A stretch of 64,000 nt of DNA from Nitrobacter sp. NHB1 (GTDB lineage: Bacteria; Pseudomonadota; Alphaproteobacteria; Rhizobiales; Xanthobacteraceae): positions 1,240,001 through 1,304,000 of the forward strand of contig NZ_JBAMDA010000001.1 of the NCBI RefSeq assembly GCF_036964665.1. The letters run 5' to 3'. Numbering within the stretch: the first letter of the stretch is position 1; each line of letters opens with the position of its first letter. The translations under genes were made by a program, and so were the position numbers. Under the pieces are notes generated by a model. The model did no database searches. It was not told the DNA's origin and saw only the letters and a program-made list of their open reading frames with translations. This document shows positions 11,685-15,330 of this stretch, piece after piece.

Positions 11685-12773
<1,089 letters not shown>

Positions 12774-12844: not shown

Positions 12845-12873
12845 AATGTACCTTATTTGTTCTCAGTTCGCAA
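12845..12873 (-). promoter_or_regulatory. recA promoter
   Basis: Read on the minus strand: TTGCGA (12868-12873), a 17-base spacer and TACATT (12845-12850), about 75 bases before the recA start codon. The -35 box lies inside the LexA site, which fits repression by promoter occlusion. Pattern-based. Confidence 0.55.
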
Positions 12874-12880
12874 TATGTTC
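12866..12880 (-). promoter_or_regulatory. LexA (SOS) box of recA
   Basis: The minus strand reads GAACATATTGCGAAC, an exact GAAC-N7-GAAC direct repeat, the LexA operator form known from alphaproteobacteria. It overlaps the predicted -35 box. A further GAAC lies 3 bases on. Confidence 0.85.
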
Positions 12881-12886
12881 TTTTTA

Positions 12887-12894
12887 TCAGAACG
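12887..12894. repeat. Target-site duplication, left copy
   Basis: TCAGAACG directly before the left inverted end of the transposon; the identical 8 bases follow the right end at 14931-14938. Confidence 0.93.
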
Positions 12895-12918
12895 CAGATT
12901 TATCCCTTGACGACAAGT
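12895..12918. repeat. Left terminal inverted repeat
   Basis: 24 bases identical to the reverse complement of 14907-14930. The open frame of the protease gene begins inside it at a GTG (12917), though the ATG at 12929 is a likelier start. Confidence 0.95.
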
Positions 12919-12928
12919 GACGATTGCG

Positions 12929-14020
12929 ATGTACCAGACTAGAACGCGACTGCAGTATGGTTTTGATTCGCCCCGCCATGGGCCAATGCGGAGCGTCCCT
13001 GGTTTCAAAATGCTGCTTCGGGAAGACCTTCGAAAGTGCATCGCCTTTATCGGCACGCCGGGGCCAAAGGAAAACGGCGGCATAACTTGCTGTGCGACTG
13101 GTTTTTTTATCGGATACGGCGGCTCACGTTATTTAGTCACCGCGCAGCATGTGGCTGTTGGTCTTGGTGATGATCCTTATCTAATCCGTCTCAACAAGAC
13201 TGACGGAACGGCAGACAACATCACTGTTGATCCGCTGACGGATAACGTTCGTTGGTTTGTGAATGAAGCCGACCCTGATGTTGATCTGGCAGTAATGCCC
13301 TTCAACTACGCCTTAAGAGAGGCTGGTTACGAGTGCTTGTTTCTGAATGGTCCCGACTTCATTCGAGAGATGAACCCGCAAATCTCGCCGCCGGGCATTG
13401 GGGACTTCTGTTACACGCTTGGGCTATTCCAGTTGGTAGCGGGCAAGAAGCAAAATCTGCCTGTTGTCCATCGTGGTAGTCTCGCGATGATAGCTAATGA
13501 AGAGCGTATTCCCGTTTGGGATTGGTTAGCGCCGCCCGGCTCCGGGAAAGTTAGACAAGTACAGTGTCATCTAGTCGAGACTCAAAGCTTGCAGGGGTTA
13601 AGTGGCGCGCCAGTATTTGGGCGCGCATCCTTCGACATCGAAGGTTTTCCGGTTAGTGGATCGGAAGAGAAGATGACAATCAGAACTGCTGAACTCGGCG
13701 TGAGTCTATTGGGTATTTGGCAAGGTTCATGGGACGCTCCGCCGGGATCTATTCTTGGCGTTCAGGAGCATGGGTCATTTCGCGTTCCGGTCGGGATGGG
13801 TGTAGTAGTCCCAACAAAGAAGCTTATTGAGCTATTGGAAACGGAGCCAGTCGTGAATCAACGAGAAGATCACAAGCGCAAGTTTGCTAACGCCGCAACA
13901 CTCGATTCCGCATTTCCCGAGAAATCCGTCCCTCCCGCCATCGGCGCAAACCCCACTCACCGAGAGGATTTCATGCGTCTTGTAGGCGCGGCAGCGCGAA
14001 AGCCTCCACAAGAAGGTTAA
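12929..14020 (+). CDS. Trypsin-like serine peptidase (transposon passenger)
   Basis: A protein of about 363 residues with a complete chymotrypsin-fold triad. Numbered from the ATG, ATGFFIGYGGSRYLVTAQHV gives His74, DPDVDLAVMP gives Asp119 and LQGLSGAPVF gives Ser225 with its oxyanion glycine. No signal peptide or PDZ domain is seen, so it is probably cytosolic. The last 60 or so residues look disordered. The start is uncertain: GTG at 12917, ATG at 12929 and later ATGs are possible and none has a strong ribosome site. Codon use is less GC-rich than in the neighbouring core genes. It lies inside the transposon and overlaps the transposase 3' end. Target and benefit are unknown. Confidence 0.8.
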   Translation: MYQTRTRLQYGFDSPRHGPMRSVPGFKMLLREDLRKCIAFIGTPGPKENGGITCCATGFFIGYGGSRYLVTAQHVAVGLGDDPYLIRLNKTDGTADNITVDPLTDNVRWFVNEADPDVDLAVMPFNYALREAGYECLFLNGPDFIREMNPQISPPGIGDFCYTLGLFQLVAGKKQNLPVVHRGSLAMIANEERIPVWDWLAPPGSGKVRQVQCHLVETQSLQGLSGAPVFGRASFDIEGFPVSGSEEKMTIRTAELGVSLLGIWQGSWDAPPGSILGVQEHGSFRVPVGMGVVVPTKKLIELLETEPVVNQREDHKRKFANAATLDSAFPEKSVPPAIGANPTHREDFMRLVGAAARKPPQEG

Positions 14021-14846
14021 ACATCGCCCAGTGCGACTTACGCATGTTGCGGCGATAGCTAAATTCGCTGACGTACTTCCAAGAATGCTTCGCTGAGATA
14101 TGGACGTGAGTGCCCTTGATGGCGCGTTTGAACAGCGACCAATGGCTTTCCAGCCCGTTCACATGATGAATGCCTCGAACGTACTCTTTCGCGGAATGAT
14201 TGACGGTGCCGTGGTCGTAAGCATGGCGAAGGCCATGGTAGGCTTTATGTTCGTCGGTGCTGATGATCGTGCCAGCCGGGATGTTTTCGTTGATGATGCC
14301 TTCAACCGTATAGGTAGTCACATCCGGGATCGGCGCGGCCAGCAAGCGCCCGTCGCGCTGTAGCATCCCGAAAACGACCGTCTTGTTGTCAGGCTCACCT
14401 TGCTTGCGACGGCCTCCAACGTGCGTTTCGTCAATTTCAATGTGGCCATCCATAGGGCCGCCCCACTTGTCATCTGCCGCAGCCATCAGCTTGCGAAGTT
14501 CATGGCACATACGCCATGCACATTTGTACGTGACACCCAACTGTCGCTCGACCTCCTTAGCCGCAACGCCGTGGCGGGTGCTGGTCATCAGGTACATGGC
14601 AAAGAACCACTTGGTCAGGTTGGTGCGAGACTTGTGGAAGATCGTTCCGGCGGCCGGGTAAACATGGTGGCCACATTCCTGACAGGCATAAGCTCGACGC
14701 TTGCTCATAGGGTGGAACGTCGCCCGCTGTTTGCAGCTGGGGCAAACAATCTCGGTCCCACCGAAGTTGATTTCCATCAGCTTGGCGAGGCAGGCGGCAT
14801 CGTTGGGATATTCCTCTTGGAACTGCTTGAACGTGTATTTTGCCAT
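13971..14846 (-). CDS. IS1595-family transposase
   Basis: A 291-residue DDE transposase. The N-terminal zinc ribbon has C35-x2-C38 and C55-x2-C58 (CPSC, CQEC). The catalytic core shows EIDETHVGGR (Asp139), ISTDEHKAY (Asp198) and HHVNGLESHWSLFKRAIKG (Glu233, Lys240), the order seen in IS1595 (ISXO2-like) enzymes. The frame is intact and the inverted ends are perfect, so it is probably active. Its last 50 bases overlap the end of the protease gene on the other strand. Confidence 0.95.
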   Translation of the reverse strand: MAKYTFKQFQEEYPNDAACLAKLMEINFGGTEIVCPSCKQRATFHPMSKRRAYACQECGHHVYPAAGTIFHKSRTNLTKWFFAMYLMTSTRHGVAAKEVERQLGVTYKCAWRMCHELRKLMAAADDKWGGPMDGHIEIDETHVGGRRKQGEPDNKTVVFGMLQRDGRLLAAPIPDVTTYTVEGIINENIPAGTIISTDEHKAYHGLRHAYDHGTVNHSAKEYVRGIHHVNGLESHWSLFKRAIKGTHVHISAKHSWKYVSEFSYRRNMRKSHWAMFNLLVEAFALPRLQDA

Positions 14847-14906
14847 CGTCTTATCCCCTTCGCGGGCCAGCTACCTGCGATTGAGGGATAGCCTATCGAA
14901 CGGATT

Positions 14907-14930
14907 ACTTGTCGTCAAGGGATAAATCTG
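14907..14930. repeat. Right terminal inverted repeat
   Basis: Exact reverse complement of the left end at 12895-12918. Confidence 0.95.
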
Positions 14931-14938
14931 TCAGAACG
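14931..14938. repeat. Target-site duplication, right copy
   Basis: TCAGAACG, identical to 12887-12894. Confidence 0.93.
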
Positions 14939-14939
14939 G

Positions 14940-14997
14940 TACTGGCCTGTTTCGACCCTTAGCGGCCCAATTTGGAATATGCGGTGGCCTAGTTTGA
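14940..14997. repeat. Short repeat tract, possible IS end remnant (copy 1)
   Basis: Contains TACTGGCCTGTTTCGACCC and GTGGCCTAGTTT. The blocks recur at 15280-15318. Repeated TGGCCT-T-rich-GAC units resemble the multiple terminal repeats of IS21-family elements, but no transposase remains. Confidence 0.4.
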
Positions 14998-15055
14998 AAC
15001 CTCCCGCTACGCTCCCTTTGGTTGAAGCGGCCGTAACAACCATGCGAGGGATCAA

Positions 15056-15262
15056 ATGCGAAAGATCGTGGCTATTGCAGCCATCGGGATATTGCCGTTT
15101 TTGTTCAATGGTGGCGCAAATGCCCAAGGGGGAGGAGCAAGGGGCGCTAGCGGAAAATCTGTTAGGTGTCCCGTGAACACCTGCTCAAAAATCGGCACCG
15201 AACGGGCAAAGGATGTCAGATACTGTTCCGCCGCGAACTGCAGGAAAAACAGGCCGAAATGA
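15056..15262 (+). CDS. Small secreted Cys-containing protein
   Basis: A 68-residue ORF with a clear signal peptide: MRKIVAIAAIGILPFLFNGGANA, with cleavage expected after ANA. The mature part is about 45 residues, Gly-rich then basic, with four cysteines (RCPVNTCSK and RYCSAANCRK) that could form two disulfides or a metal site. GAGGGA lies 5 bases before the ATG. No family is recognised; similar short exported proteins are common in Bradyrhizobium relatives. It sits between two copies of a TGGCCT repeat tract and may be part of an old mobile element cargo. Confidence 0.6.
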   Translation: MRKIVAIAAIGILPFLFNGGANAQGGGARGASGKSVRCPVNTCSKIGTERAKDVRYCSAANCRKNRPK

Positions 15263-15279
15263 AGATAAGGCCGTCTCAG

Positions 15280-15330
15280 TACTGGCCTACTTTTTTGACC
15301 CAGCAAGTGGCCTAGTTCGGCCAGTACCTC
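15280..15330. repeat. Short repeat tract, possible IS end remnant (copy 2)
   Basis: TACTGGCCTACTTTTTTGACCC then GTGGCCTAGTTC, in the same orientation as the tract at 14940. The pair brackets the small secreted-protein gene. Confidence 0.4.

Follow-up and report, generated by a model that had tools for sequence, protein, structure and literature searches.

A fixed distance to LexA boxes in about two dozen related IS1595 elements, most with different cargo, suggests a transposon homing to SOS genes

Why should a serine protease gene travel inside an insertion sequence, and why should that element sit just upstream of recA? These questions are raised by one locus of the window (the whole stretch of 64,000 nucleotides of Nitrobacter sp. 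NHB1 DNA that was analysed), in which positions 12895-14930 are occupied by an IS1595-family element of 2,036 bp with two convergent genes. Its inverted ends (12895-12918, plus strand, on the cargo side; 14907-14930, minus strand, on the transposase side) are 24 nt each and 100% complementary, and the 8-bp target duplication TCAGAACG flanks it at 12887-12894 and 14931-14938 (both plus strand), the left and right copies matching at 8/8 positions. The passenger gene (12917-14020, plus strand) and the transposase gene (13971-14846, minus strand) share 50 nt at their 3' ends (13971-14020). The element is present in a single copy in its own genome. To its left lies the SOS gene recA (11685-12773, minus strand; Pfam RecA, E 5.7e-147), the region upstream of which was the insertion target. 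Between the two is GTTCGCAATATGTTC (12866-12880), which we take to be a LexA box of the alphaproteobacterial type (GTTC-N7-GTTC), separated by 6 bp from the left duplication and by 14 bp from the cargo-side end. From the analyses described below, we consider it likely that the IS1595 element is complete and, with its two genes, probably mobile, and that it comes from a lineage that often inserts at LexA boxes, with cargo that is exchangeable and likely to serve in defence.

The transposase (291 aa) matched the Pfam models PF12762 (DDE_Tnp_IS1595, E 1.1e-36) and, N-terminally, PF12760 (zinc ribbon, 4.5e-9) above their curated cut-offs, as well as NCBIfam NF033547 (E 2.8e-52). An 8-bp target duplication with terminal inverted repeats is typical of the IS1595 family, some members of which carry passengers, and the element displays both features; presumably it belongs to the ISNwi1-like group. 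The preliminary description had proposed an intact IS1595-type transposon with perfect 24-base inverted ends, an exact 8-base duplication, an intact DDE transposase with zinc ribbon and a real passenger, and ends, duplication, transposase domains and open reading frame bear this out. The element resembles ISNwi1-like elements in its DDE and zinc-ribbon transposase, related inverted ends, 8-bp duplication and passenger region; it differs in LexA-box-spaced insertion and block-wise passenger exchange, neither of which was found described for them in the open-licence PMC literature. A profile scan with the transposase alignment recovered nine loci in genome contigs and one in viral contigs (one scan each).

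The passenger open reading frame comprises 367 aa and is convergent to the transposase. The GTG listed as its start falls within the inverted end, and in-frame ATGs at 12929 and 12986 are probably the likelier starts. Residues H78, D123 and S229 are invariant across an alignment of 14 relatives, and a predicted model (mean pLDDT 72.7, pTM 0.71) matched DegS/HtrA serine proteases by Foldseek (best E 2.2e-8), specifically the catalytic domains of DegS and HtrA1. The full His-Asp-Ser triad claimed from the sequence is therefore real, and alignment and predicted model together place the protein in the trypsin-like (chymotrypsin/HtrA) fold. No Pfam match was obtained at E<=0.01, Trypsin_2 included, nor any NCBIfam family; Trypsin_2 was matched by five of 32 cargo proteins of the lineage. 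Solved structures with sequence similarity to the protease numbered none at E<=10, and no signal peptide was visible by eye.

Matches to the protease were found in five of 200 related genomes and in six of 385 class-level genomes, its own included in each count. None of the eight other genomes of the genus matched it, so the protease does not lie upstream of recA in these relatives independently of the element; the recA upstream region itself was matched in eight of nine genus genomes, including its own. Phage records held no relative and plasmid records one distant one. Two related genomes have the protease convergent to a close transposase (94% identical in G078, 71% in G016). Ten elements have a transposase at least 60% identical and cargo that can be read; nine of them (the window, L039, L040, L041, L042, L044, L046, L065 and L068) carry a protease of the same family in the same convergent layout, and the exception, L048, carries a SocA/Panacea-domain gene. 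This shared layout, together with the absence of matches in the eight other genus genomes, led us to reject the ideas that the protease gene came along by chance or that it is old and fixed, in agreement with the initial reading of the locus. Three further loci cut at contig ends (L043, L045 and L047) were left out of the ten; L043 is the same stretch again as L098, where the protease tail remains. Relatives of the protease were also seen in L007, L008, L064, L066 and L067, with no recognised transposase in the fetched stretch. In L068 the protease element lies 92 bp behind an rpoH-like gene (identified by eye), codirectional with the cargo.

Comparison of close elements revealed that the passenger region is replaced as a unit. 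The nearest element, L039, has a transposase 94% identical to that of the window and a protease only 28% identical. At the DNA level the two share 86% identity from element position 1036 to the end, which takes in the transposase gene and the part of the protease gene that encodes its C-terminal tail; there the similarity stops, and on the cargo side of position 1036 only the terminal repeat matches (first 24 bases, 96%). The tail itself (NPTHREDF..AAARK), within which the 3' overlap of the two genes lies, occurs in all nine proteases that are carried by elements and in none of the other five in the alignment. Among wider relatives, transposases 86-95% identical are accompanied by cargo without a match at E<1 in the pairs L071/L072 (transposases 94.5% identical), L018/L019 and L012/L088, and related cargo is kept in two pairs with similar transposases (L051/L063 and L019/L078). 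Thus, the passenger between the far end and the tail is exchanged as a block, with transposase, inverted ends and tail remaining constant. The cargo had been called tightly integrated on account of the 3' overlap; the overlap is real, but it belongs to the constant tail, and the remaining cargo is replaced between elements. Most of the other cargo among the 32 proteins of the lineage has no Pfam family, and many of these proteins appear by eye to contain membrane segments. Five loci (L022, L051, L063, L088 and L092) contain open reading frames of 63-69 aa that are convergent with, and overlap, the 3' end of the transposase; perhaps these are an unfused counterpart of the constant tail of the protease.

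The recA upstream site was compared within the genus. An identical 15-base box lies upstream of recA in the seven other genus genomes aligned (eight including the window), and three of the eight (the window, G002 and G004) carry an element at the window's spacing behind it, each with different cargo. The transposases of G002 and G004 are 98% identical, against 46% for the window's, and the match between the G002 and G004 cargo proteins (E 0.064 over 57 residues) is too weak to count as real similarity. A second kind of sequence is also found here: a repeat-like end, TACTGGCC, at window positions 14940-15327, one base behind the right duplication of the element. In four genus genomes (loci L100, L101, L103 and L106) such an end follows the recA LexA box at a distance of 15 bp. 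Its variants are TACTGGCC in the window, G003 and G005, TACCGTCC in G001 and TACTATCC in G008, with repeats like TGGCCTAGTTTGA. No second close copy was present in its own genome, and no recognisable transposase adjoins it; approximately 1.9 kb on in G005 there is a gene that looks transposase-like by eye. An IS21 identity for the TACTGGCC ends was a guess, which no adjacent transposase backs.

To examine siting across the lineage, element ends were defined by an 8/8 duplication and at least 16/24 matching ends, a rule that is blind to the box. Duplicate loci of one place, fragments and already replaced loci (L027-L033) were skipped before counting. This yielded a strict set of 32 elements of the window's lineage and, from 25 loci examined (20 plus L034-L038), a control set of 16 elements of other IS1595 subgroups. 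Outside the strict set, as their ends were not exact in the search, stand five loci at recA (L020, L021, L040, L074 and L077); L014 and L055 were also outside it, with exact boxes at +17 and -34, respectively, neither of them a canonical place. GTTC-N7-GTTC is the LexA box motif of Alphaproteobacteria, and such boxes were first visible in the flanks of 27 elements. An exact box begins at -29 or -30 relative to the cargo-side end in 15 of the 32 strict elements; over 2000 shuffles of the flanks, the mean number of boxes at these positions was 0.0045 and the maximum one. In two further elements an exact box occupies the mirror position by the transposase-side duplication (+6, +7), so that both sides together give 17/32 for exact boxes and 20/32 for boxes matching at 7/8 positions or better, the 7/8 boxes at canonical places being those of L016, L041 and L046. 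From the motif density in its own genome (126 in 3.79 Mb), 0.0085 exact boxes would be expected in 32 elements. None of the 16 control elements has a canonical box (Fisher 2e-5 against 20/32). All 17 exact boxes lie 6 or 7 bp from the duplication, in either orientation, and the 7/8 boxes lie 6 bp away, with one at 5. This spacing, at recA as elsewhere, had gone unnoticed in the preliminary description. No canonical box was found in 12 of the 32 strict elements, among them L044, L065 and L068 of the protease group.

The generality of this pattern was assessed in a replicate, for which at least 30% hits in class-level genomes had been predicted beforehand. Among 26 loci, 17 met the formal thresholds; the replicate fell short, with hits in 3/17 (18%), or 3/15 after two rows were dropped (L176, whose ends lack the usual motif, and L182, a second copy of L181), and all three have 7/8 boxes. 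The 15 remaining rows were used for the tree and the combined counts. The three hits, all upstream of recA in other families, come from the five elements with a transposase at least 60% identical to that of L020, and none of the 12 more distant elements gave one. On a tree of 63 transposases the box property needs 10 changes, compared with a shuffled mean of 18.9, and none of the 16 outgroup rows has it. Replicate and tree together rule out that all ISNwi1-like elements target LexA boxes. We read the confinement of the replicate hits to closer relatives, and the pattern on the tree, as a trait that only part of the lineage has; for that part, insertion associated with LexA boxes has good support. 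The target sites of two elements with no LexA box, L172 and L169, look by eye to be embedded in short palindromes or repeats, which hints at a different target rule in other branches.

Across the 47 elements combined (32 strict and 15 replicate) there are 23 hits, and in all of them the box lies 5-7 bp from the duplication. Eighteen have the box on the cargo side and five on the transposase side (two-sided p 0.01). The neighbouring gene is recA in 13 (the window, L018, L019, L039, L046, L057, L072, L073, L078, L085, L164, L165 and L167), so that the counts, with 13/23 at one gene, are not fully independent. It is DnaE-like in three (L042, L062 and L081; Pfam confirmed a PHP domain for the L042 gene), a UvrD-like helicase in two (L041 and L016), lexA in L013 and a ribonucleotide reductase in L051. 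For the remaining three, the neighbour in L092 appears rmuC-like by eye, without confirmation by Pfam, and those in L012 and L088 have no assignment. Descent from one recA insertion was judged insufficient by itself, given that the cases differ in duplication, cargo and transposase lineage and that recA is not the only gene used; the duplications of the 32 strict elements all differ from one another, and L039, from another genus, is also upstream of recA, yet with a different duplication. Some of the recA cases may nevertheless share descent.

These neighbours also bear on whether the recA upstream spot is simply a hotspot for many kinds of mobile element. The repeat-like ends described above, which four genus genomes have 15 bp behind the box and one of which directly adjoins the window element, would fit such a hotspot. 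However, lexA, DnaE-like, UvrD-like and ribonucleotide reductase genes are targeted at the same spacing and the 16 other IS1595 elements are not found there, and we regard a general hotspot as very improbable. Nearly as improbable, in our estimation, is that selection alone produced the pattern, with elements landing at random and those upstream of SOS genes surviving since the spot is harmless or its expression pays. The concentration of hits at recA is what selection would give, as are the box and recA gene that remain intact in the window and in the genus relatives read. Survival alone, however, accounts neither for a distance of 5-7 bp in every hit nor for its maintenance in inverted elements, and control elements of the same family do not show the spacing at all.

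We therefore infer that selection does not merely retain insertions near the box, but that the transposition complex recognises the box itself or the LexA protein occupying it. The complex would dock on LexA or on the box and would place the 8-bp duplication 5-7 bp from the GTTC-N7-GTTC motif, at recA in the case of the window; with the duplication set off by this distance, box and gene stay intact. Whether LexA protein takes part is a separate matter, as the transposase could itself read GTTC-N7-GTTC with LexA playing no role. We give this version a substantial chance, somewhat short of even: the evidence consists of DNA, and one-mismatch boxes (L016, L041 and L046) are used too. Against it, the spacer and flanks of the boxes vary while the LexA half sites are common to them, and the window transposase has no LexA-like DNA-binding domain, only DDE and zinc-ribbon domains by Pfam and NCBIfam.

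Target choice of simple insertion sequences is generally thought to be loose, and Tn7-type elements use a chromosomal attachment site. The present elements resemble the latter in using a conserved host gene as the sign of a safe insertion site; they differ in having a single transposase, with no targeting subunit seen, and in that the mark is a repressor box common to several genes. Targeting of LexA boxes by an insertion sequence was not found described in titles or abstracts of the open-licence PMC literature. LexA-regulated integron integrases also tie a mobile element to LexA, but there LexA controls the recombinase gene (PMC3108266), whereas here the box is at the insertion site. More tentatively, and with rather less confidence than we would need to favour it, these elements may be LexA-guided, single-transposase defence transposons that land beside recA, lexA, dnaE and other SOS genes without breaking them; expression of their exchangeable defence cargo would then follow the SOS state while phages attack. 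A promoter at the junction may put the cargo under SOS control, but no promoter-like site was found there, and 5/23 hits have the box on the transposase side, with the cargo far from it. A small transposon with such a fixed SOS-box address, if it exists, would connect transposition to DNA damage and perhaps to phage defence. It would account for the variety of elements that gather upstream of recA, and it would constitute a one-protein system for site-directed insertion. It would also supply a search rule, by which new defence genes may be sought as exchangeable cargo beside recA LexA boxes.

What the passenger does was approached through its similarity to defence families and through its neighbours. 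The window protease matched the PADLOC model PDC-S45, which belongs to a candidate class and is termed a 'Phage Defense Candidate' in PMC12429752. The match is weak and partial (E 1.7e-6; 31-122 of 293 profile positions) and overlaps the His-Asp part of the protease. Eight of the 32 cargo proteins match PDC-S45 and eight of the 32 are proteases; the L062 cargo matches PDC-S42. At L067:1510-2989 a protease relative outside a recognised element has an AbiV-family gene (Pfam E 3.6e-22) directly behind it, at a distance of one base. Cargo of the control IS1595 elements includes BstA in two of 18 proteins (L109, confirmed singly, and L110; best E 8.9e-118), with a CapP-like peptidase (capP, 1.7e-28) beside the BstA-like cargo in L109, as well as a protein matching a pAgo model and another trypsin-like protease; the BstA-bearing elements belong to subgroups without LexA-box siting. 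By association with these family matches and neighbours, the window protease is somewhat more probably a phage-defence protein than not. That it instead serves the element, or has an addiction or stress function, seems on balance unlikely. Its fold is that of the DegS/HtrA stress proteases and most non-protease cargo of the lineage matches no family, as such a role would allow. Unrelated proteins are, however, swapped in as cargo between near-identical elements, which argues that the protease is hardly needed for transposition, and several cargo types match defence models. A second IS1595 element, of 3.1 kb, is present in the same genome (L125, G000:C1:988700-995200; duplication TATAATAT), and its cargo is a 528-aa protein with a strong match to a pAgo model.
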